Origin: Desulfovibrio sp.
GTDB lineage: Bacteria > Desulfobacterota > Desulfovibrionia > Desulfovibrionales > Desulfovibrionaceae
NCBI GenBank assembly: GCA_016218665.1
Contig: JACRDI010000009.1
Span: 1 to 64,000, forward strand
Reading direction: 5' to 3'
DNA length: 64,000 bases
Of the stretch, positions 18,613 to 44,317 are shown in pieces (the first letter of the stretch is position 1; the number at the start of each line of letters is the position of its first letter). A program made the translations under genes and the position numbers. The notes under the pieces were generated by a model. The model had not been told where the DNA came from. It worked only from the letters and a program-made list of their open reading frames with translations, and did no database searches.

Positions 18613-18705
18613 TTTTTTATGCCACATTTTTAAATTTTGTAGCACGTTGGTGCGTGGTGCCCGACGTGCCCGGAGCAGTGTGTCTACACAATCTGGAGGT
18701 GCATT

Positions 18706-20976: not shown

Positions 20977-21073
20977 TTGTGCAACGTATTGGATTGCGAA
21001 ATTTGGCTTTGTGCTAAATTCTTGCTGGTTATCGAGTCATGCGCTTGCCAATCGTGAATGATGGTGCTACGAA
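20977..21073. promoter_or_regulatory. AT-rich divergent control region with repeated TTGTGC(T/A)A motifs
   Basis: Within the 180-base gap between the TPR gene and the TM1266-family/TonB-receptor genes lie three similar words: TTGTGCAACGT (20977-20987), TTGTGCTAAAT (21009-21019) and TGGTGCTACGA (21062-21072). The related word TTGTGCTACGT recurs upstream of the FecB-like gene (27709-27719), and its complement-like TTTGTAGCACG lies upstream of hydA. A shared operator for iron or metal control is possible but unproven. Confidence 0.4.
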
Positions 21074-21107
21074 ATAAAAAATAATAACACGAAGTGAGGT
21101 GTTCCGC

Positions 21108-24164: not shown

Positions 24165-24200
24165 ACAACACCGGCCAACAAATCAGACCAGGAGAATTCG

Positions 24201-25235: not shown

Positions 25236-26057
25236 TCAGCGCCCATCCAGCGCGAAGCGCACCGGCAGGGTCATCCAGACGCCCACCGGAGCGCCCTTGA
25301 ATACGGCCGGTTCGAAGCGCCACTTGCGGGCGGCCTCCACGGCCTTTTCCTCGAACACGCCCGCAGGCTCCGCCGCCTGCACCAGCACCTCGCGCACGCC
25401 GCCCTCGGCGTCCACATAGAGCCGCAGCGTGACCTGGCCGGATATGCCGCGCCGCCGCGCATTCATGGGATAGATGGGCTTCACGCGTTTCACCGCCACG
25501 GGCATGCGGTCCACGGCGATTCCGCCCTGGCCCGTGCCGCTGCCGACGGATTGGCCGGAGCCCGTTCCCTGACCGCCGCCCTGACCGCCGCCCGTGCCGC
25601 CGCCAGACCCTCCGGTTGAGGCTGTGGGCGCACCCGTTCCCGTCGCCGTTACAGGCGCGGCCTGCGGTGCGGACGGAACTGGGGGAGCCTCGGTTCGGCG
25701 CGCCGCCGGATCGGGTATGGCCATGGCCTGCGGCGCTTTTGGCGCGGGGGCCGCCTCCCGCGATGCGGGCAGAGCCTGCGTGACGCCTGGCGAGCCCCCG
25801 CCGCCCTTGGCTCCGGCTATCTCCACGAACTCCACTTCCACCAGCGGCAAGGGAACCGGGAGGGGCGCGGCCAGCTTGGCGCACAACAGCGCACCGAGAA
25901 ACAGAGCATGCAGCACGGCGGAGACGCCCAGGGACAGGGTCCGCACGCGGACGGACCTTCCAATGAGCGGCAGGCGCAGGCGCGCTCGCTGGCGGCGAAC
26001 AGGCTGCGTTTCAGCAAGGCCCTCTATGGCTTGGATGAGCACTGCGGCCTCGTCCAT
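25236..26057 (-). CDS. tonB: TonB energy-transducing protein
   Basis: A 273-residue protein starting at ATG 26057 with GGAGAG upstream, 13 bases after the ABC permease. It has a basic cytoplasmic N-terminus, one membrane anchor (TLSLGVSAVLHALFLGALLC), a Pro/Ala-rich then Gly/Ser/Thr-rich periplasmic linker (unusually Gly-rich, GGGTGGGQGGGQGTGSGQ), and the C-terminal TonB domain at about 190-273 (RVKPIYPMNARRRGISGQVT, VQAAEPAG, ARKWRFEPAV). It passes ExbBD energy to the outer-membrane receptors. It lies in an operon with an ABC-2 exporter. Confidence 0.93.
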   Translation of the reverse strand: MDEAAVLIQAIEGLAETQPVRRQRARLRLPLIGRSVRVRTLSLGVSAVLHALFLGALLCAKLAAPLPVPLPLVEVEFVEIAGAKGGGGSPGVTQALPASREAAPAPKAPQAMAIPDPAARRTEAPPVPSAPQAAPVTATGTGAPTASTGGSGGGTGGGQGGGQGTGSGQSVGSGTGQGGIAVDRMPVAVKRVKPIYPMNARRRGISGQVTLRLYVDAEGGVREVLVQAAEPAGVFEEKAVEAARKWRFEPAVFKGAPVGVWMTLPVRFALDGR

Positions 26058-26070
26058 CCTCTCTCCCGCG

Positions 26071-26808
26071 TCAGTCCCTGGCCCTGGCCACGTTGCGCAT
26101 GGCGAGCAGGAAGGCTCCGACCCCAGCCGCCGCAAGCAGCGCCAGGGATGTGAGCGGCAGCTCCGCGCCCGTGGCCGCAGCCCTGGCCGCACGCGAGGCG
26201 TGTGTCAGCGGCAGGCAGAGGAGCAGCCCCTGCGCCCAGTCCGGCAGGCGTTCCACCGGGAAGAAGGTGCCACCCAAAAAGGCCATGGGCGTGATGACGA
26301 AGCTGGTGAGCATGGCCTAGTCTGCGTGGGATTTGATGAGCATGGCCAAGCCCACAGCGAGCGACGCGAAAAAGAAGCTGTTGAGCATGAGCGCCAGCCA
26401 GAACGCCGGGCCGCACCAGGGGTGTACTCCGAACAGCGCGCCCAGCAGCACCGTGAGCGCGGAGGCCAGAAGCCCGCGCGTCATGCCCGCCAGCACCTCG
26501 CCCAGCACGTAACCGCCGGGGGCTACGGGCGCGCTCTGGATCTCGTCGAAGATGCGCCAGTAAAACCGGGCCACGTTGATTTCCCCGGCAACGGACCAGG
26601 CCTGGGTCATGCTGCTCATGGCCGCCAGCCCCGGCACCAGGAACTGGAGGTAGGGCACGCCCGCGTGGCTCGCCACCTCGCCCAGGCCCCAGCCGAAGGC
26701 CAGCAGGTACAACAGCGGGGACACACACATGGTGGCCAGCATCTTGGGGCCGCGGCGGCGCATCAAGAGCGCCTCGCGGTAGTAGACCGCGCTCCAGCCC
26801 TGGATCAT
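26071..26808 (-). pseudogene. ABC-2 type permease interrupted by an in-frame TAG
   Basis: The 244 sense codons plus one internal stop make a full NodJ-like permease: six membrane segments are visible across both parts, for example LGALFGVHPWCGPAFWLALM before and FVITPMAFLGGTFFPVERL after. The TAG is at 26317-26319 (complement cta), directly after MLIKSHAD, inside a conserved stretch, and the frame continues without a shift. An ATG two codons after the stop could restart an 80-residue second part. The ATP-binding gene overlaps its start by 4 bases. It is either a recent nonsense mutation, a sequencing error, or a read-through site. TAG is used freely as a stop by other genes here. Confidence 0.85.
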
Positions 26809-27647
26809 GCCAGCTTCCTCCCGGTCACCCTGTGGAACACGTCTTCAAGGTTCACGCGGCGCAGGGTGAACGGTCCTGGCAAGGTGGAACCGAAGGCCTG
26901 CGCCTCCTCGCGTCCCGGAAAGTAATCCGTGCGCATGCCCTCGCCATTGAGCGCATCCACGGCCCAGGCGCCCAACCCGGCCATGAGCTCCTGCGGGGTT
27001 CCCAGCGCCGCCACCTGGCCCCCGTGCAGGAAGGCCACGCGGTCGGCCAGAAACTCGGCCTCCTCAATGTAATGAGTGGTGAGCAGGATGGTGGTGCCGC
27101 CCTCGCGGATGCGCTTCATGGCCGTCCAAAGCGTGCGCCGGATGGAGGGGTCCAGGCCCACGGTTGGTTCGTCTAGGAACAGCACGCGCGGCTCGTGCAT
27201 CAGCGCACGCGCGATCATCACCCTACGGCGCTGCCCGCCAGACAGCTCGCGCACCAGCGAGGCGGCGCGGTCGGCCATCTCCAGCCGCTCCAGCGCCTCC
27301 CCGGCCCGGCTGGAGCGCAGCGGCGCAGGCATGCCGAACAGCCGCCCGTGCACTTCCAGGTTTTCCGCAACCGTAAGGTCCTGGTCCAGGTTGATGGCCT
27401 GGGCCACCACCCCGCACAGGGCCTTGGCCCGCGTCGGCTCCCGTGCCACGTCCACGCCGCCCACCAGCGCCCGCCCGCCGTCCGGCAGGGTTAAACCGGT
27501 GAGGATGCGGATGGTCGTGGTTTTTCCCGCGCCGTTGGGGCCAAGGTAGGCGAATAGCTCCCCGGCCCGCACGTGCAGGTCCACCCCGGACAGCGCCTTC
27601 CTTGCGCCGTAGCTCTTCGCGAGCCCTTCAAGAACTATCACACGCAT
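26805..27647 (-). CDS. ABC transporter ATP-binding protein, NodI/DrrA type
   Basis: A 280-residue ATPase of an ABC-2 exporter. Walker A is GPNGAGKTTT, the Q-loop VVAQAINLDQ, the signature LSGGQRRRV, Walker B VLFLDEPTVGLDP and the H-loop TTHYIEEAE. The C-terminal extension (about 220-280) is typical of the DrrA/NodI type. ATG 27647 has AGGAG at 3-5 bases. The stop overlaps the permease start as ATGA. Downstream is tonB, an unusual pairing. Because the permease is interrupted, this ATPase may currently lack a functional partner. Confidence 0.92.
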   Translation of the reverse strand: MRVIVLEGLAKSYGARKALSGVDLHVRAGELFAYLGPNGAGKTTTIRILTGLTLPDGGRALVGGVDVAREPTRAKALCGVVAQAINLDQDLTVAENLEVHGRLFGMPAPLRSSRAGEALERLEMADRAASLVRELSGGQRRRVMIARALMHEPRVLFLDEPTVGLDPSIRRTLWTAMKRIREGGTTILLTTHYIEEAEFLADRVAFLHGGQVAALGTPQELMAGLGAWAVDALNGEGMRTDYFPGREEAQAFGSTLPGPFTLRRVNLEDVFHRVTGRKLA

Positions 27648-27668: not shown

Positions 27669-27740
27669 AATGCATTAGTAGCATACGATTCAATTCTTGA
27701 AAAGTCTCTTGTGCTACGTTTTGTGATTTGGTATGCATGC
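27669..27740. promoter_or_regulatory. AT-rich divergent control region between exporter and FecB-like genes
   Basis: A 122-base gap with marked AT content separates the minus-strand exporter operon from the plus-strand importer operon. It holds TTGTGCTACGT (27709-27719), AGTAGCATACG (27678-27688) and a repeated ATGCAT/GCATGC pair. The words recall those in the 20.9-21.1 kb region. This is a likely site for a shared metal regulator. Confidence 0.4.
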
Positions 27741-27769
27741 CTCCGCGCGGTTCACACGGGGAGGCAAAC

Positions 27770-28840
27770 ATGCTCGCAGGGAAGAACACTCACAGGACAA
27801 TACGCAGGACTGGCGCGGCGTTGGCTGCCACGGTTCTGACGCTGCTGATTCTTTGCGGCTGCGGCAAGGGTGAGCCCGGAGTGGCGGAGGACCAGGGGGT
27901 GCGTGTTACCGACGCCACTGGCCACGAGGTGCTGGTCAAGCGCAACCCCATGCGCGTGGTGACGCTGAACAAGAACGCCGCCGAGCTGCTGCGGCTCATG
28001 GGCGTCATCGACCGCGTGGTGGGCGTGTCCGACTGGATTCCCAAGAACCCGGACTACTGGCCGGAGCTTGCCGGGGCGCGCAACGTGGGCAAGTTCAACG
28101 CGCCCGACGAGGAGGCCATCGCCGCCCTCAAGCCGGACCTGGTGCTGTGCTACCAGAACTCGCCCGGCCCCGGCTTTGACGAGAAGATGCGCGCCGCGGG
28201 CATCCAGGTGCTGCGGCTGGAGCTGTACCGCATCACCGCGCTGCCGCGCGACGTGGAGGGCCTGGGCCGCATCTTCGGGCGCGAGGACAAGGCCCGCGAA
28301 TACCTGGATTGGCTCAAGGTGCGCATGGACGAGGTGGCCCGCCGCGTGGCCGCCAGCAAAAGCAGGCCCGACGTGTACATCGAGGGCTACTCCGACTTCG
28401 CGGCCTGCGGCAACAGCTCCGGCATGCACGAGCGCCTGGAGTTCGCGGGCGGGCGCAACATATCCGAGGCCATGCAGCCCGCCAACACCCCCGTGTCGCC
28501 GGAGTGGGTGCTGGAGCGCCAGCCCTGGGCCGTGGTAAAGATGAGCTCCCAGAACGGCTGCTACACCCATGACGGCCCGGAGGGCATGGTGGACCAGCGC
28601 GCCTCCCTGCTGGCCCGCACGGGCTGGGCCAAGACCCCGGCGGGCAAGGCCGGGCGCGTGTTCCTCATGACCACGGACGTCACCAGCGGCGCGGCCAGCG
28701 TGGTGGGCATCGCCTGGATCGCCAAGTGGCTGCACCCGGACACCTGCTCGGATCTGGACCCCAACCAGTGGCACCGCGAATTCATTGAGCGCTTCCAGGG
28801 CAGACCCTGGCGCGGCGTGTACGTGCACCCGGAGCACTAG
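27770..28840 (+). CDS. ABC importer substrate-binding lipoprotein, FecB/BtuF type
   Basis: A 356-residue cluster A-type binding protein for metal chelates. ATG 27770 has GGGGAGG upstream; the basic leader and LILCGC lipobox place it as a lipoprotein on the periplasmic side of the inner membrane. The N-lobe has RVVTLNKNAAELLRLMGVID and the C-lobe WVLERQPWAVVKMSS. It diverges from the exporter operon and begins an operon with permease, ATPase, TonB receptor and the CobN-type chelatase. The ligand may be a siderophore, heme or other tetrapyrrole, or a Ni or Co complex. Confidence 0.88.
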   Translation: MLAGKNTHRTIRRTGAALAATVLTLLILCGCGKGEPGVAEDQGVRVTDATGHEVLVKRNPMRVVTLNKNAAELLRLMGVIDRVVGVSDWIPKNPDYWPELAGARNVGKFNAPDEEAIAALKPDLVLCYQNSPGPGFDEKMRAAGIQVLRLELYRITALPRDVEGLGRIFGREDKAREYLDWLKVRMDEVARRVAASKSRPDVYIEGYSDFAACGNSSGMHERLEFAGGRNISEAMQPANTPVSPEWVLERQPWAVVKMSSQNGCYTHDGPEGMVDQRASLLARTGWAKTPAGKAGRVFLMTTDVTSGAASVVGIAWIAKWLHPDTCSDLDPNQWHREFIERFQGRPWRGVYVHPEH

Positions 28841-28842
28841 GC

Positions 28843-29862
28843 GTGCAGGTGGCGGCGGACAAAACGGGCGTGGAGGCCTACGGCGCGCTCACCGGCAGGC
28901 GCGCGGCGCGCATCCTGGTTCTGGCGGCCCTGCTGGCGGCCTCGGCGGTGGTCTCCCTGGCCGTGGGCAGCAGCTCCGCCGGCCTGCGCGACACCCTGCG
29001 CACCGGGCTGGACGGGGTCATCTTCTGGGAGCTGCGCGTGCCGCGCGTGCTCATGGGCCTGCTGGTGGGCTCCGGCCTGGCCGTGGGCGGGGCCGTGACC
29101 CAGGCCGTGCTCAAGAACCCGCTGGCCTCGCCCTTCACCCTGGGCGTGGCCTCGGGCGCGGGCTTCGGCGCGGCGCTCGGCATCGTGCTGGCCGGGGCCA
29201 TTGCCAAATGGGCCGTGGCGGGCGGGGCCTTCGGCTTCGCGCTCGTCACCGCGCTGTTCATTTTGGGCGTGGCCCGCATGAAGAGCGCCACCCCGGAGAC
29301 CCTCGTGCTCGCTGGCGTGGCCATCATGTTCCTGTTCTCTGCCGGAACCTCGCTCTTGCAGTTCCTGGGCACGGAGCAGCAGATCCAGGCCATCGTGTTC
29401 TGGAGCTTCGGCAACCTCTCGCGCGCCTCCTGGACGGACATCCTCATCGCCGCAGGCATGATTCTGCCCGCCCTGCCGCTGCTCTTCCTGCGCGGCTGGG
29501 ACCTGAACCTGCTCCTGGCGGGCGACGAGATGGCCGCCAGTCTGGGCGTCAACGTGGACCGGCTGCGCCTGGCCGCGCTTTTGCTGGCCGCGCTCATGAC
29601 CGCTGGGGCCATCTGCTTCACCGGCGTCATCGGCTTCATCGGGCTGGTGGGGCCGCACTTGGCGCGGATGATGGTGGGCGGCGACCACCGCTTCCTGCTC
29701 CCGGCCTCGGCCCTGTCAGGCGCGTTGCTGGTGCTGGTGTCCGACTGCCTGGGCCGCACGCTCTTCGCCCCGCACATGATTCCCATCGGCATCGTCACGG
29801 CCTTCCTGGGCGTGCCCTTTTTCTTCGCGCTGCTCATCCGGCGCAAACGGGAGTTCTGGTGA
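28843..29862 (+). CDS. ABC importer permease, FecCD/BtuC family
   Basis: A 339-residue permease with about nine to ten membrane helices and the family motifs LRVPRVLMGLLVGSGLAVGG, QAVLKNPLASPFTLGV and FIGLVGPHLARMMVGGDHR. The start is GTG 28843, 2 bases after the binding-protein stop, with an ATGA-like one-base overlap onto the ATPase downstream. It moves a metal chelate through the inner membrane. Confidence 0.93.
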   Translation: MQVAADKTGVEAYGALTGRRAARILVLAALLAASAVVSLAVGSSSAGLRDTLRTGLDGVIFWELRVPRVLMGLLVGSGLAVGGAVTQAVLKNPLASPFTLGVASGAGFGAALGIVLAGAIAKWAVAGGAFGFALVTALFILGVARMKSATPETLVLAGVAIMFLFSAGTSLLQFLGTEQQIQAIVFWSFGNLSRASWTDILIAAGMILPALPLLFLRGWDLNLLLAGDEMAASLGVNVDRLRLAALLLAALMTAGAICFTGVIGFIGLVGPHLARMMVGGDHRFLLPASALSGALLVLVSDCLGRTLFAPHMIPIGIVTAFLGVPFFFALLIRRKREFW

Positions 29863-30635
29863 TGCTCACAGCCCGGAACATCTCTTACGACTACCCGGAC
29901 CGCCAGGTGCTGCGCGGGGTGTCGCTGTCCCTGGCACCCGGCGAGGTGCTGGCCGTGCTGGGCCAGAACGGCGCGGGCAAGTCCACCCTCCTGCGCTGCC
30001 TGGCCGGGGCGCTCAAGCCCACGGGCCAGGTGGTGCTGGACGGCCGCCCGCTCCAGTCCGTGCCGCCCGGCGAGCGCGCGCGACTGCTGGCTTTTGTGCC
30101 GCAACATGTGCCGACGCGTCTGCCCATGACCGTGTTCGAGGCCGTGCTCTTGGGACGCAGGCCCTACCTGTCCTGGCGCCCAAGGCCGCAGGACCTGGAG
30201 GCGGCCTGGGAGGCCCTGTCGCTCCTGGGGCTGGAGGAACTGGCGCAGCGCGAGTTCTCCGAGATCTCCGGCGGCCAGCGGCAGAAGGTGGCCCTGGCCC
30301 GCGCCCTGGCCCAGGAGAGCCGCCTGCTGGTCATGGACGAGCCCACGAGCAGCCTGGACCTGAGGCACCAGTTGGAGGTCATGACCCTGCTCTGCGCGCA
30401 GGCCGAGGAACGCGACACCGGAGTCATCCTGGCCGTGCACGACCTGAACCTGGCCGCGCGCTACGCCAGCCGGGCGCTTCTGCTTTGCTCCGGACGTGTG
30501 CTGGCCGAGGGTGCGCCCGACGAGGTGCTCACCGAGGCGCTCATCCGTGAAGCCTATGGCGTGGACGTGCTGCGTGTGCAGACGGGCGCTGGCGCCATGT
30601 TATTCCCTCTGTCCGCCGTGGGCGGCCGGGCTTGA
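29862..30635 (+). CDS. ABC importer ATP-binding protein, FecE/BtuD type
   Basis: A 257-residue ATPase with Walker A GQNGAGKST, Q-loop VPQHVPTRLPMT, signature ISGGQRQKVALAR, Walker B LLVMDEPTSSLDLRHQ and H-loop AVHDLNLA. ATG 29862 overlaps the permease TGA by one base. A TonB-dependent receptor starts 29 bases after its stop, so outer- and inner-membrane steps are co-transcribed. Confidence 0.94.
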   Translation: MLTARNISYDYPDRQVLRGVSLSLAPGEVLAVLGQNGAGKSTLLRCLAGALKPTGQVVLDGRPLQSVPPGERARLLAFVPQHVPTRLPMTVFEAVLLGRRPYLSWRPRPQDLEAAWEALSLLGLEELAQREFSEISGGQRQKVALARALAQESRLLVMDEPTSSLDLRHQLEVMTLLCAQAEERDTGVILAVHDLNLAARYASRALLLCSGRVLAEGAPDEVLTEALIREAYGVDVLRVQTGAGAMLFPLSAVGGRA

Positions 30636-30664
30636 AAAGAATACGATTCCGGGAGGAAGAGTCC

Positions 30665-32737
30665 ATGCACTTCAAAACGCTTCTGCTTTGCCTTGCGCTG
30701 TACCTTACCGTTGCCGGGTCCGCCCTGGCGGAAACCCCTTCGGCCGACAACGCCACAAGCACGCCATCGGCCTCCAAGGGGACCCGGCTCCAGGAGGTTC
30801 TGGTCACGGCAACCAGCCACGAGACCCGCGTGGACGCCGTGCCCAACGCGGTGACGGTCATCACCCGCGAGCAGATCGACCAGATGGTGGCCCCCACCAC
30901 CATCGACATCCTGAAGAACGCCGCCGGCGTCGAGGTGTACAACGCCCGCGGGCCGCTCTCGTCGAGCACCTACAACCGCGTCATCATGCGCGGCCAGGGC
31001 AGCAACCCCGCACGCATCCTGGTGATGCTCAACGGCATCCCCCAGGCGGGCGGCCAGAACGGCGACTTCGAATGGAGCTTCATCAACCCCCGCGACGTGG
31101 AGCGCATCGAGATCGTGCGTGGCCCCGGCTCCGCGCTCTACGGCTCCCAGGCCATGGGCGGCGTCATCAACATCATTACCCGCAAGCCCACCGAGGCCGA
31201 CGGCAAGACCGTGTTGGAAACCAAGTACGGCTCGCTGAACACCATGAGCGCCTCGGCCTCCCACTCCCGCAAGGAGGGCGACTGGGGCTTCTACGGCTCG
31301 GCCACGGTAGGTGGAACCGATGGCTATCAGGTAATCCCCGGCGACCAGGTGGTCTACAAAAGCGGCGCGGCCACGAACTCCGACAAGCTGCGCAGCGAGA
31401 ATGACTGGGGCCGAGGCGTGGTGACCTACGACATCGACAAAACTTCCGGCCTGACCCTGAACATGATGCATGGGCACTTCATCAACCAGGGCATGTACAA
31501 CTTCATGCACGAGTTCACGGCCTTCGAAATGGCCAAGAAGCAGGCGGACCTGAACTACGCCAAGAAATTCACGGGGGGGGAGGTGTTGGCGTACGCCTCC
31601 GGCGCCTACCAGTATTCAACCTACGACGGCACCAGCAGCAGCGCGCCGTACAACAACATGGCCAAGACCGGCGAATCCCCGGCCTACCAGCGTGACTACC
31701 AGGGTGGCGTCAAGGCCACCGTGGACGCGGGCCTGGGCAACACCCTGAGCGCGGGGCTGGACATCAAGCGCACCAGCTATGACCGTCGTTATGACAACTA
31801 CGGCATGGCGGGCAACAACTATGGCTCGGCCGGAGGCGATGCCCAGGTCTGGGGCGCGTTCCTGCAAGACGAATTGAATCTGTTTGACGGCCGCCTCCTG
31901 ATCACCCCGGGCGTGCGCTACGAGAACACCAGTCTGTTCAACGGCTATGCCGAGCAACAGCCAACTGTTGCCCGGCGGGAGATGGCCCGTTCGCTCCTGC
32001 GTTCCCTCACCGGACGCGTGGGCGCGCGGTTGAACGTCGTGGACTGGCTCTCCTTCCGCTCGGCCTTCGGAGAGGCTTTCCGCGCCCCCACTCTGAACGA
32101 ACTTTACGGCGCCAGCCGCATCGGCACCAGCACCTACTACGGCAACACCGACCTCAAACCCGAACGGATGCGCTCCCTTGAGGGCGGCGTGGACATCACC
32201 CCGCTGGACGACCTGCGCATCTCGCTCACGGTCTACAAGAACCACGCGGTGGACTACATCGACAACGTGCTGGTGAGCACCGGACCCAACGTCTACAACA
32301 AGAAGAACATCGGCACCGTGGACACCGGCGGCTTCGAGGGCGAGGTCTCCTACACCTTCCTGGAGCACTGGCGCAGCTTCCTGAACCACCAGCAGTGCGA
32401 CCCCAAGCTCATGACCGGAACCTACGTGGGGCAGCGCATCACCGGCACGCCCACCATGACCACCTCCATCGGCCTGGCCTTCAGCGACCCCAAGCTGTTC
32501 AACGCCTCCGTGGTGAACCGCCGCGTGGGCCGCATCTACAACAATTCGGCCAACAGCCAAGTCTACGGCAACTACGATGTGGTGGACGTGAGACTGGCCA
32601 AGGCCTTCCAGCTTGAGACCTCCAAGCTGGAGCTCTCACTTGAGGTCTCCAACCTCTTCGATGTCCGCGTGCGCGAGACCTCAAGTACCCAGGCTCCCGG
32701 CAGCCTCTACACCGCTGGCGTGGCCTGGATATTCTAA
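30665..32737 (+). CDS. TonB-dependent outer-membrane receptor
   Basis: A 690-residue receptor. ATG 30665 has GGGAGG upstream, which decides against the earlier ATG at 30632. The signal peptide is about residues 1-24 (ALYLTVAGSALA). A short Thr/Ser-rich spacer precedes the TonB box LQEVLVTAT, then the plug (VMLNGIPQAGGQNGDFEWSF, IERIEIVRGPGSALYGSQAMGG) and the barrel ending AWIF. It lies between the FecBCD-type importer and the CobN-type chelatase. The order suggests uptake of a tetrapyrrole or metal chelate that the cytoplasmic chelatase then handles. Confidence 0.93.
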   Translation: MHFKTLLLCLALYLTVAGSALAETPSADNATSTPSASKGTRLQEVLVTATSHETRVDAVPNAVTVITREQIDQMVAPTTIDILKNAAGVEVYNARGPLSSSTYNRVIMRGQGSNPARILVMLNGIPQAGGQNGDFEWSFINPRDVERIEIVRGPGSALYGSQAMGGVINIITRKPTEADGKTVLETKYGSLNTMSASASHSRKEGDWGFYGSATVGGTDGYQVIPGDQVVYKSGAATNSDKLRSENDWGRGVVTYDIDKTSGLTLNMMHGHFINQGMYNFMHEFTAFEMAKKQADLNYAKKFTGGEVLAYASGAYQYSTYDGTSSSAPYNNMAKTGESPAYQRDYQGGVKATVDAGLGNTLSAGLDIKRTSYDRRYDNYGMAGNNYGSAGGDAQVWGAFLQDELNLFDGRLLITPGVRYENTSLFNGYAEQQPTVARREMARSLLRSLTGRVGARLNVVDWLSFRSAFGEAFRAPTLNELYGASRIGTSTYYGNTDLKPERMRSLEGGVDITPLDDLRISLTVYKNHAVDYIDNVLVSTGPNVYNKKNIGTVDTGGFEGEVSYTFLEHWRSFLNHQQCDPKLMTGTYVGQRITGTPTMTTSIGLAFSDPKLFNASVVNRRVGRIYNNSANSQVYGNYDVVDVRLAKAFQLETSKLELSLEVSNLFDVRVRETSSTQAPGSLYTAGVAWIF

Positions 32738-32763
32738 CTTTGTGCGAGGGGGAGGCCCGGACC

Positions 32764-35700
32764 ATGAAAATCACCGCCATTGTCTGGAACAGCCACGCCG
32801 AAGGGCTGGCCCGCGCGGCAGAGTCCCTGCCCTGGCTCACCCTGCGCCTGTATCCGGCCAAGAGCCTGGAGGACAGCCCGGAGCGCCAGGCCCAGGCCCT
32901 GGCCGACCTGCGTGGCTCAGACGCGGCCTTCCTGTATCGAGCCACGGAGCCGTTCTGGGACGACATGGAGCCGGAATTGAAGGAGGCGGGCAAGCGCGTG
33001 CCCACGGTCTGCCTGAGCTACGACCCCTCGCTCTGGGGCCTCTCCACCGCCCGGCCGGAGCTGGTGCAGGACGCCCACCGCTACATGACCTTCGGCGGCA
33101 TCCAGAACGTGGCGAACCTGTTGAAGGCCCTGGCGCGGGAGTTCGGCGGGCCGGAATACACGGAGCTGGATGCGCCGCCACCGGCCCCGGTTCCCTGGGA
33201 GGGCCTGTGGCATCCCGCTATGCCGACATCTGCCGGGGCGCGGCGGCACTTCGCCAGCTTGCCGGAATACCTGGCCTGGTACTCCAGTCACTGCGCCGGG
33301 CGGCCCATGGCCGACGGCCCCTGGGTGGGGCTGGTGGTGGGCCGCCACTACTGGGTGGGTGAAACGCTTGAAGTGGAGGAACTGCTCATCAGCGACCTGG
33401 AGGAGCAGGGCCTGCGCGTCATCCCCATCTTCACCAACACCATCAAGGATGACGGCCTGGGCAACAAGGGCGCGCTGGCCTGGCTGCGCGAGGTGTTCTT
33501 GGCCCCGGACGTGCCGAAGATATCCGCCGTCATCAAGCTGGTGAGCTTCTTTCTGGGCCACACGCGCAGCGGCGCAGGCAACCAGGAGGACGCCGCTGAC
33601 GACAAGGGGGCGGCTGTCGCCTCCTCGGGCGTGGCGGCGCTGAAGGAACTGGGCGTGCCGGTGTTCCAGCCCGTGTTCTCGTCCTCCAAGTCCGTGGAGC
33701 AGTGGCAGGACGACCCGCAGGGCCTAGGCAGCGAGGTGGCCTGGAGCGTGGCCATGCCCGAGTTCGAGGGCGTCATCGAACCCATGTACCTGGGCGGCGG
33801 CAGCCGGTACGAGAGCGCGGCCACCGGGGCCAGCCTGGAGCGCCGCGTGCCCGTGGCCGAGCGCAGCCAGCGCCTGTCCCGGCGCGTGGCGGCGTACATC
33901 CGGCTGGCGCAGAAGCCTGTGGCCGAGCGCAAGGTCGCCTTCATCCTGCACAACGACCCCTGCGCCTCGGTGGAGGCCACCGTGGGCGGCGCGGCCAAGC
34001 TGGACAGCCTGGAGAGCGTGTCGCGGATACTCGCGACCATGAAGGAACAGGGCTATAGCGTGGAACCGCCAGCGAGCGGAGCCGAACTCATCGAGACTAT
34101 CATGGCCCGCAAGGCTGTTTCCGAGTTCCGCTGGACCACCGTGGACGAGATCGTGCAGAAGGGCGGGGCGCTGGCCCGGCTGTCGCTCGGCACGTACCTT
34201 TCCTGGTGGCGGCACTACCCGGAGAAAGTTCGGACGCGCATCGCCGAGGCCTGGGGCGAGCCGCCGGGCGCCGAGGTGAACGGCGTGCCCCCGGCCATGC
34301 TCCACGAGGGCAAGATCGTCATCACCGGCGTGACCTACGGCAACGCGGCCATCTGCGTGCAGCCCAAGCGCGGTTGCGCCGGGCCGCGCTGTGACGGCCG
34401 GGTGTGCAAGATTCTCCACGACCCGGATATCCCGCCCCCGCACCAGTACATCGCCACGTACCGCTGGCTCCAGGACGAGACCGAGGGGTTCGGGGCGGAC
34501 GTGCTCATCCATGTGGGCACCCATGGCAACCTGGAGTTCCTGCCGGGCAAAAGCGTGGGCCTGTCCGCCTCCTGCCTGCCGGACCTGGCCCTGCACGAGG
34601 TGCCGCACCTGTACATCTACAACGCCGACAACCCGCCCGAGGGCACCATCGCCAAGCGCCGCAGCTACGCCGCGCTGGTGGACCACATGACCACGGCGCT
34701 GACGCACACCGAACTGTACGAGGAGCTGGACGAGCTGGCCCGGCACCTGGCCGAATGGGAGCAGGCCAAGGATTCCGACAAGACCCGCGCCCACATGCTG
34801 GAGCACCTGGTGCGCGACGTGGCCGAGAAGGCCAAGCTGCTCAGTTCCATCAGGGGCGGGGCGGACATGGACTTCGGCCGGCTCGCCACGGCCCTGCACG
34901 AGTCCCTGGACCTCATCCGCGGCACGCAGCACGACGACGGCATGCACGTGTTCGGCGGCGCGCCGGAGGGCGAGCGCCTGAACGCCTTCCTCTGGTCCAT
35001 CCTGCGCTACGACGCGGACGCCCCCAAGTCCCTTCGCCGCAGCCTGTGCCACATGCTGGGCCTGGAGCTGGACACCCTGCTGGCTGAGCCGGGGGCCGTG
35101 GATCAGCGCCTGAAGGTCAGCAACTCTGAGCTGCTGGCCGAAGTGGAGCGCCTGGGCCGGGAGTGCTGCGGCGCGGCGCTGGCCTGTGCGGACAGTGAAG
35201 GCTTCGTTCAGGCTGTGCTGGGCTTTGTGAGAGAATGTATGGTGGGCGAGCGCCTCGTGGACGGAGCTTCTGCCGACGACTTGCCCGCCATATTCCGCCG
35301 CATCCGAGACGTGAAGCGCCGCGTGGACGACTCCCTGGAAATCGACGCGCTGCTCAAAGGCTGCGCCGGGGGCTACATCGAACCGGGGCCGTCGGGCATC
35401 ATCACGCGCGGGCGCGAGGACATCCTGCCCACGGGCCGGAACTTCTACTCGCTCGACCCACGCCGCTTGCCTACGCGGGCCGCGCACATGGTGGGCATGC
35501 GCTTGGCCGACGCCATCATCGACAAGCATGTGCGCGAGGAAGGCCGCGTACCCGAGAACGTGGCCATGTTCTGGATGTGCAACGACATGATGTGGGCCGA
35601 CGGCGAGGGGATGGCGCAGATCTTCCACCTCATCGGCGTGCGCCCGGTGTGGAAGGGCAACGGACACGTGAAGGGCTTCGAGGTCATCCCGCTGGCCGAG

Positions 35701-36732
35701 TTGGGGCGGCCCCGCGTGGACGTGACCATCCGCGTCTCGGGCCTCCTGCGCGACAGCTTCGCGGAGCAGATGGCGCTCGTTGACGAGGCCATCCACTTTG
35801 TCGCCTGCCTGGAGGAAGCCGACGAGGACAACTACGTGCGCAAACACGCCCGCGCCACGCTGGAGAAATCCGGCGAGAGCGGCGACGAGGCGTGGAGGAA
35901 ATCCACCCTGCGCCTGTTCTCCTCCAAGCCCGGCACCTACCAGGCCGGGGTGAACCTGGCCGTGTACGCCTCGGCCTGGCAGACCGAAGCCGACCTGGCG
36001 GACATCTTCGTCTACTGGAATTCCTACGCCTACGGGCGCGGCGTGTTCGGCGAGCAGCGGCCCAGACAGTTGGAGGCCGCGCTGTCCACCGTAGACGTGA
36101 GCTACAACAAGGTGGTGAGCGACGAGCACGACCTGTTCAACTGCTGCGGCTACTACGGAACGCACGGCGGCATGACGGCGGCGGCCCGGCAATTCGGCGG
36201 CGGCGAGGTCAAGGGCTACTACGGCGACACCCGCGAGCCGGGCCGCGTGCAGGTGCGCGACCTGGCCGACGAGATCCGCCGCGTGGTGCGCACCCGGCTG
36301 CTCAATCCCGCCTGGATCGAGGGCATGAAGCGCCATGGCTACAAAGGCGCGGGCGACATCAGCAAGCGCGTGGGCCGCGTGTACGGGTGGGAGGCCACCA
36401 CCCGCGAGGTGGATGACTGGATCTTTGACGACATCGCCAAGACCTTTGTCATGGACGAGGAGAACCGCGAGTTTTTCCGCCAGCACAACCCCTGGGCGCT
36501 GGAGGAGATCGGGCGCAGGCTCCTGGAGGCCCAGTCGCGCGGGCTGTGGCAGGCCGACCCCGAAGTGCTGGACGCGCTCAAGGAGTCCTACCTGGAGATG
36601 GAGGGCTGGCTGGAGGAGAGCATGGGAGACGTCACGGGCGACTTCCAGGGCGGCAGCGTGGACATCATGCGGCCCGAGGACGTGGAGCAGTGGCAGGAGA
36701 TGATGCGGGCCATGAAGGCCAAGCCCGCCTAA
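32764..36732 (+). CDS. cobN: CobN-type chelatase large subunit
   Basis: A 1322-residue cytoplasmic protein of the CobN/ChlH/BchH family, the large substrate-binding subunit of ATP-driven metal chelatases. ATG 32764 has GGGGGAGG upstream. Family blocks are present: HVGTHGNLEFLPGKSVGLSA, YIYNADNPPEGTIAKRRS, YYGTHGGMTAA and NPAWIEGMKRHGYKGAGDI. The length is typical of CobN (about 1250-1350). It is followed by its AAA+ partners of the ChlI and ChlD type. Desulfovibrio-type bacteria make B12 with the single-subunit CbiK chelatase, so a CobN next to a TonB/ABC uptake system may act in import, for instance as a metal-removing (reverse) chelatase like HmuS. Confidence 0.9.
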   Translation: MKITAIVWNSHAEGLARAAESLPWLTLRLYPAKSLEDSPERQAQALADLRGSDAAFLYRATEPFWDDMEPELKEAGKRVPTVCLSYDPSLWGLSTARPELVQDAHRYMTFGGIQNVANLLKALAREFGGPEYTELDAPPPAPVPWEGLWHPAMPTSAGARRHFASLPEYLAWYSSHCAGRPMADGPWVGLVVGRHYWVGETLEVEELLISDLEEQGLRVIPIFTNTIKDDGLGNKGALAWLREVFLAPDVPKISAVIKLVSFFLGHTRSGAGNQEDAADDKGAAVASSGVAALKELGVPVFQPVFSSSKSVEQWQDDPQGLGSEVAWSVAMPEFEGVIEPMYLGGGSRYESAATGASLERRVPVAERSQRLSRRVAAYIRLAQKPVAERKVAFILHNDPCASVEATVGGAAKLDSLESVSRILATMKEQGYSVEPPASGAELIETIMARKAVSEFRWTTVDEIVQKGGALARLSLGTYLSWWRHYPEKVRTRIAEAWGEPPGAEVNGVPPAMLHEGKIVITGVTYGNAAICVQPKRGCAGPRCDGRVCKILHDPDIPPPHQYIATYRWLQDETEGFGADVLIHVGTHGNLEFLPGKSVGLSASCLPDLALHEVPHLYIYNADNPPEGTIAKRRSYAALVDHMTTALTHTELYEELDELARHLAEWEQAKDSDKTRAHMLEHLVRDVAEKAKLLSSIRGGADMDFGRLATALHESLDLIRGTQHDDGMHVFGGAPEGERLNAFLWSILRYDADAPKSLRRSLCHMLGLELDTLLAEPGAVDQRLKVSNSELLAEVERLGRECCGAALACADSEGFVQAVLGFVRECMVGERLVDGASADDLPAIFRRIRDVKRRVDDSLEIDALLKGCAGGYIEPGPSGIITRGREDILPTGRNFYSLDPRRLPTRAAHMVGMRLADAIIDKHVREEGRVPENVAMFWMCNDMMWADGEGMAQIFHLIGVRPVWKGNGHVKGFEVIPLAELGRPRVDVTIRVSGLLRDSFAEQMALVDEAIHFVACLEEADEDNYVRKHARATLEKSGESGDEAWRKSTLRLFSSKPGTYQAGVNLAVYASAWQTEADLADIFVYWNSYAYGRGVFGEQRPRQLEAALSTVDVSYNKVVSDEHDLFNCCGYYGTHGGMTAAARQFGGGEVKGYYGDTREPGRVQVRDLADEIRRVVRTRLLNPAWIEGMKRHGYKGAGDISKRVGRVYGWEATTREVDDWIFDDIAKTFVMDEENREFFRQHNPWALEEIGRRLLEAQSRGLWQADPEVLDALKESYLEMEGWLEESMGDVTGDFQGGSVDIMRPEDVEQWQEMMRAMKAKPA

Positions 36733-36751
36733 ACATACGGAGCGAGACACC

Positions 36752-37786
36752 TTGAAGAACCACAACTTCGCCTACCCCTTCTCGGCCATTGTGGGCCAGG
36801 AGCTTATGAAGGAGGCCCTGCTGCTCAACGTGGTCAATCCACGCCTGGGCGGCGTGCTCATCCGGGGCGAGAAGGGTACGGCCAAGAGCACGGCGGTGCG
36901 CGCCCTGGCCAGCCTGCTGCCGGAAATGGACGTGGCCGAGGGCTGCCCCTTCGCCTGCAATCCCGGCGGTGCAGATCTGTGCGAGGCATGCGCGGCCAAG
37001 GCCCAGGCCGATGCGCTCACCGCGAGTCGCCGCCGCATCCGCGTGGTGGACCTGCCCGTGGGCGCGACGGAGGACCGCGTGCTCGGCACCCTGGACCTCG
37101 AAGCCGCCATCAAGAAGGGCGAGAAGCACTTCGAGCCGGGCATCCTGGCCGAGGCGCACCGGGGCATCCTCTACGTGGACGAGGCGAACCTCTTGGACGA
37201 CCACATCGTGGACGTGCTGCTCGACGCCGCCGCCATGGGAGTGAACACCGTGGAGCGCGAGGGGGTAAGCTTCAGCCATCCGGCGCGTTTCGTGCTGGTG
37301 GGCACCATGAACCCGGAGGAAGGCGAACTCAGGCCCCAGCTGCTGGACCGCTTCGGCCTGTGCGTGCAGGTGGAGGGCATTCTGGACATCGATAGCCGCG
37401 TGGAGGTGGTGCAGCGCCGCGCGGCCTACGAGGACAGCCCCGAGGGCTTCGCCCAGGCCTGGGCGGACAAGGAACAGGCCGTGGCGGACCGTGTGGAGCG
37501 CGCCCGCGCCCTGCTGCCCCGTGTGGGCTTCCCGGACGAACTCCTGCGCCTGGTGGCCCAAATCGCCGTGGATATGGGCGTGGACGGCCATAGGGCGGAC
37601 CTGGTGATGATGAAAACCGCCAAGACCTTGGCCGCGCTGGATGGGCGCGACATCGCCACCCGCGAGGACGTGGGCCGCGCCGCCGAGCTGGCCCTGCCGC
37701 ACCGCATGCGCAAGAAGCCCTTCCAGGACATCGGCCTGGACAAAAATACGCTGGCCGGGAGCATGGAGAAGGGCCTTGCCCGCTAG
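36752..37786 (+). CDS. magnesium-chelatase ChlI/BchI-like AAA+ subunit
   Basis: A 344-residue AAA+ ATPase that powers the large chelatase subunit. It uses TTG 36752 with GGAG 9 bases upstream, 19 bases after cobN. Walker A is GEKGTAKST, Walker B ILYVDEANLLDD, sensor/insert GTMNPEEGELRPQLLDRFGL; a four-cysteine group (CPFACNPGGADLCEACAAK) in the N-terminal insert could bind metal. The size matches BchI (about 340). The next gene overlaps its end by 11 bases. Confidence 0.92.
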   Translation: MKNHNFAYPFSAIVGQELMKEALLLNVVNPRLGGVLIRGEKGTAKSTAVRALASLLPEMDVAEGCPFACNPGGADLCEACAAKAQADALTASRRRIRVVDLPVGATEDRVLGTLDLEAAIKKGEKHFEPGILAEAHRGILYVDEANLLDDHIVDVLLDAAAMGVNTVEREGVSFSHPARFVLVGTMNPEEGELRPQLLDRFGLCVQVEGILDIDSRVEVVQRRAAYEDSPEGFAQAWADKEQAVADRVERARALLPRVGFPDELLRLVAQIAVDMGVDGHRADLVMMKTAKTLAALDGRDIATREDVGRAAELALPHRMRKKPFQDIGLDKNTLAGSMEKGLAR

Positions 37787-39881
37787 ACCGCAGGTGTACC
37801 CCTTCAGCGCCCTGGTGGGGCAGGAGCGCCTGAGGCGCGCGCTCATGGTCTGCGCCGTGTGCCCGTCCATCGGCGGGGTGCTGGTGCGCGGGCAGAAGGG
37901 CACGGCCAAGTCCACCGCTGTGCGCGCCCTGGCGGCGTTGTTGCCGCATATCGAAGTGGTGCGCGGTTGTCCATTTTCCTGCGCCCCGGAGGGACCGCAC
38001 TGCCCTGAATGCGCCAACCGCCTGCACCAGGGCGAGATTTCGCCCACCGACTGGCGACCCGCCCGGCTGGTGGACCTGCCGCTGGGGGCCACCGAGGACC
38101 GCGTGTCCGGCTCGCTCGACCTGGAAGCAGCCATCCGCCACGGACGCAAGCAGCTTGAGCCGGGCCTCTTGGCCCGCGCCCATCGAGGCGTGCTGTACGT
38201 GGACGAGGTGAACCTCTTGTCCGACCATCTGGTGGACATCCTGCTCGACGCCGCCAGCCTGGGCGAGAACGTGGTGGAGCGCGAGGGCGTCAGCTTTAGG
38301 CATCCGGCGCAGGTCATCCTGGTCGGGACCATGAACCCGGAGGAGGGCGAACTCAGGCCCCAGTTGCTGGACCGCTTCGGCCTGTGCGTGGAGGTGGCTG
38401 CGCCCCTGGACCTGGACGAGCGCATGGAGGTGCTGCGCCGCCGCGAGGCCTTCGATGCCGACCCGGGCGGCTTCGCCGCCTCATGGGCTGAGGAGGAGCG
38501 CCGGACTGCGCGGGCCATTGTGGAGGCGCGCCGCGCCCTGCCGCTGGTGCGCATCCCGGCCCCACTGCTTAGGCAGGCCACGGAGCTGTGCCTGGAGGCC
38601 TGCGTGGCCGGACACCGGGCGGACATCGCCCTGCGCCTTACCGCCCGCGCCCTGGCAGCCCTGGCCGGGCGCGAGGACGTTCGCCAGGCCGACCTGGACG
38701 AGGCTGCCGAGTTGGTGCTGCTGCACCGCCGCCGCATGCCCCCGCCGCCGCCTCCACAACAGCCGGAGGAGCAGGAGGAGCAGAAGCAGGAAGAACAGCA
38801 CGACCACGAACATCAGCATAATGAGCAGCCCGAACAGGAGCCGCAACAGCCCGAGCCGCAGCAGGCCGAATCACAGCCAGAAGATGCCCGCGCCAGCGAG
38901 GAGGAAGGCGAGTTGGAGGAGTCGCCGCCGGACGAATCAGACGAATCAGACGAATCGGGCGAATCGGACCAGGAGGGTAAGGCCGCCCCGCTGGCCCTGG
39001 AGACCATCTTCCCCGTGGGCGCGGCCTTCCGCGTCAAGCCCATCGTGTACAAGAAGGACCGTGTGGTGCGCACGGGTTCGGGCAGGCGCACGCGCTCGCG
39101 CACCAGCCAGAAGTCCGGGCGCTACGTCAAGGCCAGGTACAACTCGGCACCCACGGACTTGGCCCTGGACGCCACCCTGCGTGCCGCCGCGCCGTTTCAG
39201 CGCTCGCGCAGGCTGAAGCTCGTCACGCCGGCTGAAATCGCCGAAGGCGTCGCCGTGCTGGTGCGCTCCTCCGACCTGCGCCAGCGCGTGCGCGAGAAGC
39301 GCATGGGCCACTTCATCGTCTTCGTGGTGGACGCCAGCGGCAGCATGGGCGCTGGCCGCCGCATGGTGGAGACCAAGGGCGCGGTGCTGTCGCTCCTGCT
39401 CGACGCCTACCAGAAGCGCGACAAGGTGGGGCTGGTGGCCTTCCGGGGCGAGGGAGCCTCGGTGCTGCTGCCGCCAACCAGCAGCGTGGACCTGGCCTAC
39501 AAGCTCCTGGAGGAGCTGCCCACGGGCGGCAAGACCCCGCTGGTGCATGGCCTGTCCCTGGGGCACGAGCTGCTGGAACGCCAACTGCGGCGCGATCCGG
39601 CCAGCTTCCCGGTGCTGGTGGTCATCTCCGACGGCAAGGCCAACGTGAGCCTTGCCGGGGGCAAGCCCGTGGCGGAGTCGCGCGAAGCGGCGCGGGCCAT
39701 TGCGGACGACCCGCGCATCCGCTCACTCGTGGTGGATGTGGAGAAGGCCGGGCTGGTGCGCTTCGGCCTGGCAGAAGGCTTGGCCGCAGAAATGGGCGCG
39801 CAGTACTTCCGCATCGAGGACTTGAAGGCCCGCGACTTGGTGGACGTGCTGCGCCGAGAGGTGCTGGAGACCTCGCCTTAG
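37776..39881 (+). CDS. magnesium-chelatase ChlD/BchD-like subunit with AAA+ and VWA domains
   Basis: A 701-residue partner of the preceding ATPase. TTG 37776 with GGAGAAGG upstream overlaps the ChlI-like gene; GTG 37794 is the alternative. Residues about 5-320 are a second AAA+ domain with intact GQKGTAKST and LYVDEVNLL; it also has CPFSC/CPEC cysteines. Residues about 320-410 are a low-complexity Gln/Glu/His/Pro/Ser/Asp linker (HDHEHQHNEQ and DESDESDESGESD, the last from a 9-base tandem repeat near 38936). The C-terminal VWA domain has the MIDAS motif VDASGSMGAG. The intact N-terminal ATPase is unlike many ChlD proteins, whose Walker motifs are degenerate. Confidence 0.9.
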   Translation: MPARPQVYPFSALVGQERLRRALMVCAVCPSIGGVLVRGQKGTAKSTAVRALAALLPHIEVVRGCPFSCAPEGPHCPECANRLHQGEISPTDWRPARLVDLPLGATEDRVSGSLDLEAAIRHGRKQLEPGLLARAHRGVLYVDEVNLLSDHLVDILLDAASLGENVVEREGVSFRHPAQVILVGTMNPEEGELRPQLLDRFGLCVEVAAPLDLDERMEVLRRREAFDADPGGFAASWAEEERRTARAIVEARRALPLVRIPAPLLRQATELCLEACVAGHRADIALRLTARALAALAGREDVRQADLDEAAELVLLHRRRMPPPPPPQQPEEQEEQKQEEQHDHEHQHNEQPEQEPQQPEPQQAESQPEDARASEEEGELEESPPDESDESDESGESDQEGKAAPLALETIFPVGAAFRVKPIVYKKDRVVRTGSGRRTRSRTSQKSGRYVKARYNSAPTDLALDATLRAAAPFQRSRRLKLVTPAEIAEGVAVLVRSSDLRQRVREKRMGHFIVFVVDASGSMGAGRRMVETKGAVLSLLLDAYQKRDKVGLVAFRGEGASVLLPPTSSVDLAYKLLEELPTGGKTPLVHGLSLGHELLERQLRRDPASFPVLVVISDGKANVSLAGGKPVAESREAARAIADDPRIRSLVVDVEKAGLVRFGLAEGLAAEMGAQYFRIEDLKARDLVDVLRREVLETSP

Positions 39882-39940
39882 GGCTTGTGCCAACACCGCT
39901 TGTCAGATAGAGAATGAGGCAAATCCATAGGGAGGCTCCC

Positions 39941-40354
39941 ATGCGCAAAACCATCCAGCTTCTGGCCCTGCTATCCCTGCTCCTTGTCTCGTCCACGGCC
40001 CTGGCCGGTGCCAGCGACCCGCTGTTCATCAACCTCACCAGCGACGACCCGCACCGCGCGCTCATGGCCATCAGCTTCGGCCAGGCGCAGATGGAACGCG
40101 GCCACCCGCTCACCGTGTACCTGAATGACCACGCCGTTCTGGTGGCGAGCAAAAAGAACGCCGCCAAGTTCGCTGAGCAGCAGAAGCTCCTCTCCGGCAT
40201 CGCCGCCAAGGGCGGCACCGTGCTGGTGTGCCCCATGTGCAGCAAGAAGTTCGGCGTGGCCGAGGCTGACTTCATCAGCGGAGCCAAGCTCACCAGCCCG
40301 GACATCACCGGCCCGGCCCTATTCAAAGACAACACCAAGACGCTGTCCTGGTAG
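39941..40354 (+). CDS. exported DsrE-family protein
   Basis: A 137-residue DsrE/YchN-fold protein with a signal peptide (IQLLALLSLLLVSSTALAGA) that places it in the periplasm. The core FINLTSDDPHRALMAISFGQ and VTVYLNDHAV-like strand pattern fits the family, and VLVCPMCSKKF carries two cysteines. ATG 39941 has AGGGAGG upstream. Family members bind sulfur or act in sulfur relay; this one could carry persulfide or metal in the periplasm. It follows the chelatase operon and converges on the His-rich gene. Confidence 0.8.
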   Translation: MRKTIQLLALLSLLLVSSTALAGASDPLFINLTSDDPHRALMAISFGQAQMERGHPLTVYLNDHAVLVASKKNAAKFAEQQKLLSGIAAKGGTVLVCPMCSKKFGVAEADFISGAKLTSPDITGPALFKDNTKTLSW

Positions 40355-40381: not shown

Positions 40382-40642
40382 CTAGTGCTTGTGGTCGTGC
40401 GGTTCCTTGGCGTGGCCCTGGTGCTCGTGGTCGTGCGGGCCGTGCTCGCCCGTGTGCTCATGGACATGGCCCGCGCCTTCGGCGTGGTCGTGCGCATGCT
40501 TATGCTCATGCTGGTGTTCGTGGCTGTGGGTGTGCTCGTGCGGATGCGAATGCTCGCCCATGCCGGGGTGCGTGTGCGGATGCTCATGCGTGTGGCTGTG
40601 CTCGTGCGCATGGTCGTGGCTGTGCTCATGGTCGCCCTTCAT
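40382..40642 (-). CDS. histidine-rich metal-binding protein
   Basis: An 86-residue protein with 34 histidines, mostly in xH dipeptides (HEHSHDHAHEHSHTHEHPH) alternating with Glu, Asp, Ser and Thr. ATG 40642 follows AAAGGAG, so the longer frame to 40720 is rejected. It has no membrane or signal segment. It probably buffers or stores Ni, Co or Zn in the cytoplasm, like Hpn or SlyD tails. It converges on the DsrE-family gene and stands apart from nrdDG. Function inferred from composition only. Confidence 0.82.
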   Translation of the reverse strand: MKGDHEHSHDHAHEHSHTHEHPHTHPGMGEHSHPHEHTHSHEHQHEHKHAHDHAEGAGHVHEHTGEHGPHDHEHQGHAKEPHDHKH

Positions 40643-43735: not shown

Positions 43736-43744
43736 GCTGTTCTC

Positions 43745-43791
43745 CGGCTGCTTCGAGGTTTCCATGACGCGGGGGTCGAAACCAGCAGCCG
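43745..43791 (-). promoter_or_regulatory. hairpin sequestering the nrdD ribosome site
   Basis: The pairs cggctgct (43745-43752) with agcagccg (43784-43791) and ggtttc (43757-43762) with gaaacc (43778-43783) form 14 perfect base pairs with a 4-base bulge. On the minus strand the GGAG ribosome site (43745-43742) abuts the base of this stem. It is a candidate translational expression platform for the upstream B12 riboswitch. Confidence 0.65.
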
Positions 43792-43879
43792 AAGGGAATA
43801 CGCCCGTCAGAACTGCCGCATCGCCCTCCCACGAGGCGCACGCGTCACACCGCCGGGACGCGAACGTCCTGGCGGGAGC

Positions 43880-44056
43880 GGGCAGGTCTTCGGACTTGCG
43901 GGCGCTTGCGGCTTGTTGGCCGCCTTCCTCGCCCCCGGACTTCCCGGCCTGCGCCAGTGTCCCAATGTGGGGGCTCGTTCCCGTTCACCGCTGCGGGGCA
44001 GTTCCGGACTTACATCGGATTCCCTTTTCACCCGGACATGTCCGGGCACCAGCTCA
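43880..44056 (-). ncRNA. cobalamin (AdoCbl) riboswitch of nrdDG
   Basis: On the minus strand the RNA shows the conserved B12 riboswitch order: GGGTGAAAAGGGAA near the 5' end, then GTAAGTCCGGAACTGCCCCGCA, CGGTGAACGGGAAC, the CACTGG segment, GGGAAGTCCGG, and the closing GCAAGTCCGAAGACCTGCC. It lies about 115 bases before the nrdD coding region. In bacteria with a B12-dependent reductase, such riboswitches repress the B12-independent one. A second riboswitch is divergently placed about 260 bases away; the gap between them should hold both promoters. Confidence 0.9.
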
Positions 44057-44317
44057 GTTGCGTATATGGAGCCGGAGGCGGGCGAAGTCAAATCCACAGG
44101 ACAATCGCATCCACCTGAATTTGCAAGAGGACACATAACGGCGGGAGACGTTGTCCGCACATAACCAGCTGCTTTCAAAGATGAATACACTCGCATCCAG
44201 CGCGGAGATAAATTCCTAGAAAAAATCTTGAGACCGCTCTGGACGAAGCGTTCCTTGACAGCAACTCACTGGACACGCTACGCAAAAAATCCACGCCAAA
44301 TCTGGCGCGGGTATTGT

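Follow-up and report, generated by a model that had tools for sequence, protein, structure and literature searches.

We analyzed a 64,000-nucleotide stretch of DNA from Desulfovibrio sp. (contig JACRDI010000009.1, positions 1 to 64,000, assembly GCA_016218665.1; this whole stretch is referred to as the window), focusing on a seven-gene run on the plus strand at 27770-39881. The run encodes, in order, a periplasmic binding lipoprotein, a permease, an ATPase, a TonB-dependent receptor, and the chelatase subunits CobN, ChlI and ChlD, each assigned with Pfam and NCBIfam models (Table 1). The intergenic gaps were no longer than about 30 bp and there were small overlaps. An earlier reading of this DNA, referred to as the original prediction, had described the same run with small gaps and overlaps; all of the genes were present on the plus strand where it had placed them, and the genes were found to be neighbors, with no fusion of the kind its title had announced.

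Table 1. Positions of the operon genes and of other features in the window
Feature	Position	Strand	Evidence or remarks
Periplasmic binding lipoprotein (substrate-binding protein, BtuF/TroA type)	27770..28840, ATG start	+	PF01497; lipobox by reading
FecCD/BtuC-type permease	28843..29862	+	PF01032
Importer ABC ATPase	29862..30635	+	PF00005
TonB-dependent receptor	30665..32737, ATG start	+	PF00593, PF07715
CobN-type chelatase subunit	32764..36732, ATG start	+	PF02514 1230 bits; NF004646
Cys538-x4-Cys543-x4-Cys548 codons, CobN Loop I (loop over chelatase cavity)	34375..34407	+	invariant in 43/43
ChlI AAA+ subunit	36752..37786	+	TIGR02030/TIGR02442 matches under cut-off; Walker A
ChlD AAA+/VWA subunit	37776..39881, start TTG 37776 or GTG 37794	+	TIGR02442; DASGS
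Operator/promoter region, half-sites TAGCAT, GTGCTAC, GTATGC kept in genus	27674..27742		promoter comparison
Full NikR-type site	21064..21090		before TonB receptor / NikR-like / deoxyhypusine-synthase-like cluster
NikR-type site	18619..18645		before [FeFe] hydrogenase
TonB protein, upstream of operon	25236..26192	-	PF03544
ABC-2 exporter permease, shortened by in-frame stop	26317..26808	-	PF01061
ABC-2 type exporter ATPase, divergent from operon	26805..27647	-	PF00005
Secreted DsrE-like protein, downstream of ChlD	39914..40354	+	PF02635; also in G098 and G134

The CobN-type subunit matched NF004646 with 1736 bits against a cut-off of 1468. Its score with the older model TIGR02257 was below the cut-off (795 bits, cut-off 822), as was that with the BchH/ChlH equivalog model TIGR02025 (774 bits, cut-off 829), and the protein was not classed as ChlH. 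ChlD passed TIGR02442 (807 bits, cut-off 779), and the closest models to the importer ATPase were heme, F420-0 and corrinoid ATPases, all of which scored below their cut-offs. ChlI and ChlD had intact Walker A motifs, ChlD had the MIDAS sequence DASGS, and both had the cysteine inserts that the original prediction had stressed together with the Walker motifs. However, a text search that included the window's own proteins found such inserts in 20 of 27 ChlI and 14 of 27 ChlD, and they were rejected as a special feature since they are not specific.

A search of the phylum with the window CobN identified relatives in 74 of 395 genomes (E up to 1e-100). Neighborhoods were fetched for 41 loci with the same CobN type (31 first, then 10) and for 10 loci with a more distant type; genomes are numbered G and loci L. 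Among the 41 same-type loci there was a TonB receptor within about 11 kb in 38, the importer pair in 37, ChlI and ChlD in 34 each, and both genes of an ABC-2 exporter, on either strand, in 15; the distant-type loci had the receptor, importer, ChlI and ChlD in 5 each and the exporter in 2. All these counts are lower bounds, as several stretches stop at contig ends. In six genomes (G363, G490, G255, G416, G205 and G275) the operon itself contained the exporter genes, which separated that of the importer ATPase from CobN. The CobN of a Humidesulfovibrio metagenome-assembled genome (L041) was 91% identical to that of the window. Together, these data show that the importer and CobN-ChlI-ChlD form a conserved module.

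CobN was split into two adjacent matches, with the break near residues 800-842 and separate open frames in many, in nine genomes (G247, G212, G185, G374, G252, G481, G497, G172 and G368) and at loci L137-L139 and L141-L144. In G220, a Gate-domain membrane protein gene (L104 4893-5840, minus strand) lay between CobN and ChlD, and a similar gene was present in the G303 neighborhood. The distant-type loci L129 and L131 joined CbiK-like, ABC-2 exporter, TonB receptor, CobN and importer genes, and may be a sister system that salvages a different metal.

The cysteine triad in Loop I of CobN was invariant in all 33 proteins aligned (the window's own, those of 31 loci and the second copy of G303; two of these are N-terminal pieces alone), and a text search found it in all 10 same-type CobN proteins of the second batch. 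The same text search did not find it in the 10 distant-type loci, of which four gave loop sequence, and it was absent from the aligned Mycobacterium CobN, Synechocystis ChlH and HmuS chains. HmuS and BtuS have been described as heme dechelatases of Bacteroidota (PMC12583661, PMC6460266). In the alignment Cys548 was opposite Phe502 of HmuS and His552 was opposite His506, two residues placed over the heme edge when the HmuS loop was modelled closed (PMC12583661), and His587 was aligned with the active-site His538 in domain III. A structure model of CobN residues 270-1322 (predicted local distance difference test, pLDDT, 77; predicted template-modelling score, pTM, 0.81) had the CobN/ChlH/HmuS fold, its best match being 7c6o (template-modelling score, TM, 0.75), with HmuS 9p4s at 0.73. 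The model was rejected for siting the triad, whose position is taken from the HmuS sequence alignment because the pLDDT of Loop I was below 50. There was no hydrophobic segment in CobN (hydropathy on the Kyte-Doolittle scale did not exceed 1.6 in any 19-residue window) and no Met-rich run (at most 7 Met in 60 residues). Based on the lack of a hydrophobic segment, the metal step is probably cytoplasmic, unlike that of HmuS.

Evidence on the metal came from regulatory sites. NikR represses when nickel is plentiful, and genes under its control would therefore be on when nickel is scarce. The delta-proteobacterial NikR operator has been described as GTGTTAC-N13/14-GTAACAC; some genomes have it everted, and an [Fe] hydrogenase is among the targets (Rodionov 2004, PMC545781). 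Our operator matrix was built from 12 sites from the family and the half-sites of Table 4 of that paper, and included no site from a CobN operon. Of the 12 sites, four precede [FeFe] hydrogenases, four precede the TonB/NikR-like cluster and the other four lack an established context; as each was picked either by pattern or in a half-site scan, the matrix is to some extent circular with respect to the published consensus.

Across the 902,437 bp of the 41 same-type loci, 14 sites scored at least 15, and 10 of these, at 10 loci, were within the 27,687 bp (3.07%) of non-coding DNA lying no more than about 250 bp upstream of module genes (binomial p about 7e-13, assuming independent sites, which related genomes are not). 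In this strict zone, 300 column-permuted matrices (threshold 14) identified 0.47 loci on average and 6 at most, the latter with a matrix in which only two columns are swapped, and 11 spacer pairs without 13 gave 0 to 2 loci. A site in G275 just under 14 was left out of the strict count. In a first test of the 310 bp before the operons (32 stretches, the window included), five stretches had p below 0.01 and four scored at least 14, with a mean of 0.13 and a maximum of 2 for 300 permuted matrices; the G519 stretch had been shifted by hand to the receptor gene after a site was noticed there. Among 20 further loci, a site preceded the operon in 5 of the 10 of the same type, and the 10 of the distant type had a single site, inside a CbiK-like match.

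All 10 genomes with a strong operator encode NikR, and the site was present at 10 of 22 NikR-positive loci versus 0 of 14 NikR-negative loci (Fisher p=0.0025), negative meaning outside the 183 positives in a sample of 395 that was taken as the same sample as in the CobN search and in which some genomes are incomplete. This comparison left out five loci (G134, G110, G020, L045 and L046). The operator loci were spread over several branches of the CobN tree (branch order within the type taken at face value), and three of the four loci on the branch sister to the window's genus had the site. NikR binds nickel through ligands in the pattern H-x-H-x5-C, and CooT also binds nickel; in G275 a nikR with the nickel ligands directly followed chlD, and there were CooT genes near the operon in G333 and G205. 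Nickel as the metal is well supported for several relatives.

In the window, the operon promoter shared the arrangement TAGCAT-N26-GTGCTAC-N13-GTATGC, with variable spacers, with G098, G134, G122 and G061, and a weaker form was present in G110. GTGCTAC is the NikR half-site of the genus. Because the operon's own promoter has just this half-site, nickel is assigned to the window from the relatives and from neighboring sites, two of which are listed in Table 1. A further full site in the same genome (C29:150069) lay about 65 bp before an apparent [NiFe] hydrogenase small subunit gene, and the genome had five [NiFe]-hydrogenase matches on four contigs and a NikR with nickel ligands (G000:C41:70653). 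The NikR-like gene of the window was rejected as the regulator since, by eye, it lacks the nickel ligands, which makes the NikR encoded at another place in the genome a better candidate. Control by Fur was likewise rejected after a consensus scan: of 32 upstream stretches 30 were at p=0.055 or higher, there was no convincing site at the window promoter, and the sole stretch with p<0.05 (G416) is cut at a contig end and is not a true promoter. Based on the relatives and the neighboring sites, nickel is the probable metal in the window's genome as well.

We give about an even chance to the reading that the operon serves to salvage metal bound in tetrapyrroles, with nickel as the likeliest metal. 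The regulation of the genes and the company they keep lead us to infer that the ligand is a tetrapyrrole and that the reaction runs towards removal: a metal-tetrapyrrole would be taken up when nickel is short, and its metal would then be removed in the cytoplasm, driven by ATP. The TonB receptor, the binding protein and the BtuC-type importer would carry the metal-loaded macrocycle to the cytoplasm, where it would be bound in the CobN cavity. ATP hydrolysis by the ChlI-ChlD AAA+ motor would then drive the metal out of the CobN-bound ring, with the Loop I cysteine triad and His587 as likely metal acceptors. Where an ABC-2 exporter is present, it may expel the emptied macrocycle or return it outside as a metallophore; the exporter permease gene of the window is interrupted. 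The metal may also differ by lineage, being nickel under NikR and cobalt in G220. A fuller version, which we advance only tentatively and regard as rather unlikely, is that Ni-tetrapyrroles such as methanogen F430 and sedimentary nickel porphyrins are imported, that an ATP-driven CobN-ChlI-ChlD dechelatase removes their nickel in the cytoplasm with the triad loop as acceptor, and that the empty ring is re-exported by the ABC-2 exporter, possibly as a reusable nickelophore.

Several observations weigh against this reading. To our knowledge, no known enzyme removes nickel from a tetrapyrrole. The best score for a full NikR site in the window promoter, with inverted and everted forms scanned, was 6.4 (p=0.074), and there was no full site at the operon promoters of the five closest relatives (G122, G061, G134, G110 and G098). 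The conserved promoter elements, including the everted half-site pair with its 26-bp spacer, may be -35 and -10 boxes; TTGTGC-N17-TATGCA in the window promoter is compatible with a plain promoter. Strong sites were lacking at 31 of the 41 loci, 14 of which are from genomes with no detected NikR, and across the window's genome the operator pattern was not enriched over a reversed control (4 against 22). The strict zone, limited to non-coding DNA and fewer gene classes, was set after the results of earlier operator counts were known, and in the loose count the 11 loci observed compared with a permuted mean of 2.44 and a maximum of 16, with at least 10 loci in 5 of 200 runs. Moreover, the closest models were heme ones for the receptor and ATPase and a B12 one for the permease, a B12 riboswitch leads the operon in G220, and riboswitch-led TonB receptor operons were found near the chelatase genes in the window, G490, G416 and G247.

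These riboswitches, the BtuC-type permease and the NCBIfam naming of CobN and ChlD as cobaltochelatase would fit a cobalt or corrinoid module, which would import a corrinoid or a metal-free corrin and either remove the cobalt or, like CobN in B12 synthesis, insert it at a late stage. We consider such a module unlikely. The window's genome (84% complete) has one CobN, two CbiK and one CbiD, and the two CbiK and the CbiD make the CobN set dispensable for B12 synthesis, which was therefore rejected as the operon's purpose; the original prediction had held that the set was not needed for B12 and had called for a check of the genome for cbiK and other cobN genes, and the genome supports it in this view. 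Among 149 genomes of the family, CbiK was identified in 143 and CobN in 11, and 10 of these 11 also had CbiK; the exception, G027 (84% complete), has no more than a piece of CobN where a contig ends. There was no B12 riboswitch ahead of the window's operon, and where stretches were scanned, at 37 of the 41 loci (for seven, the upstream stretch alone), G220 was the sole case in an operon leader. In addition, the NikR-type sites at 10 loci argue against cobalt. Elsewhere, genes of BtuCDF type for a permease, an ATPase and a binding protein came after the window genome's own CbiK (L038 10053-13846), and G110 had, about 11 kb before CobN, a CbiK that carries a cobalamin riboswitch (L032 3645-3825).

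Insertion of metal is the established direction of CobN-ChlI-ChlD and ChlHID, and the NikR-type sites would also suit a nickel (or cobalt) insertase whose metal-tetrapyrrole product serves as a cofactor or metallophore and whose precursor or product is moved by the transporters. This is improbable, as the importer and receptor point to uptake and the genes would be on when little nickel is available for insertion. Heme-iron salvage like that of HmuS, with AAA+ partners added, is favored by the HmuS precedent (PMC12583661) and by the nearest models of the receptor (TonB-hemin) and ATPase (heme ABC), both below cut-off, but is slightly more improbable still, given the lack of a convincing Fur site at the window promoter and the NikR-type sites found instead.

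The proposed salvage of tetrapyrrole-bound nickel resembles several described systems in part. As with HmuS and BtuS, a CobN-type subunit is encoded in a TonB-linked uptake locus, an active-site His is shared, and metal would be taken from an imported tetrapyrrole, as has been shown for HmuS. However, HmuS is described as membrane-anchored, with a Met-rich insertion and no need for ATP (PMC12583661), whereas the window CobN lacks an anchor or Met-rich run, is encoded with ChlI, ChlD and a BtuC-type importer, and has the Loop I triad and, in relatives, nickel signals. It also scored higher with Mycobacterium CobN (542 bits) than with HmuS (355 bits), and HmuS is only a distant analogue. The original prediction had proposed extraction of metal from an imported tetrapyrrole with HmuS as its model; that interpretation was right in outline, although the analogue was poor, the first-choice metal was probably wrong, and the ABC-2 exporter, the nickel link and the CobN triad were overlooked.

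In Pseudomonas aeruginosa, PA1921-PA1925 similarly has a CobN-like gene beside a TonB receptor and is induced by transition-metal starvation, but it responds to zinc through Zur, and there is no ChlI, ChlD or ABC importer among the table rows consulted for that operon (PMC4542158). The late cobaltochelatase (CobN with CobS/CobT or ChlI/ChlD) is alike in subunits, fold, the NCBIfam cut-offs passed by CobN and ChlD, and the best structure match, 7c6o. The window set differs in being dispensable for B12 and in having the triad, the linked importer and receptor, and NikR-type operators in relatives. The published NikR regulon has an operator of the type found in relatives, its everted form and an [Fe] hydrogenase target, but in the part of that source used here its members were nik transporters, nikK, hydAB and a D. 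psychrophila gene pair with no assigned function, with no chelatase listed (PMC545781). No description of a NikR-linked CobN operon was found in the titles and abstract openings of the open-access literature searched, nor in the parts of PMC2667541, PMC11247825 and PMC10846266 consulted.

The in-frame stop of the divergent exporter permease gene (26317-26319) was absent from G098 and G122, the two relatives with which the gene was compared. Convergent to the operon and the DsrE-like gene is an open frame (40385-40642, minus strand) for an 86-residue peptide with 34 His that resembles metal-storage peptides. Beyond it, an nrdD-like anaerobic ribonucleotide reductase gene (41534-43765, minus strand) and an nrdG-like gene, named from reading of the sequence and a radical-SAM match, lie behind a cobalamin riboswitch (43864-44068, minus strand), and a second cobalamin riboswitch leads a BtuB-like receptor operon back to back with these nrd-like genes. 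A second candidate nickel uptake system is the cluster at 21064-25172, which combines a NikR-type site and a TonB receptor with the NikR-like protein that lacks nickel ligands and with a deoxyhypusine-synthase-like protein. Its receptor and deoxyhypusine-synthase-like gene were also found in G098, G061, G122 and G144 (the last without CobN there), and its NikR-like gene was matched solely here and in G098.

The routine annotation of CobN homologues is cobaltochelatase. If the proposed reading is correct, a widespread CobN group in sulfate reducers and their kin extracts metal, under nickel control in several lineages, and the presence of cobN would be unsafe as evidence of B12 synthesis. The cases for iron (HmuS) and zinc (PA1921-1925) would be joined by an ATP-driven one for nickel, and anaerobes would have a route to recover nickel locked in tetrapyrroles such as F430.

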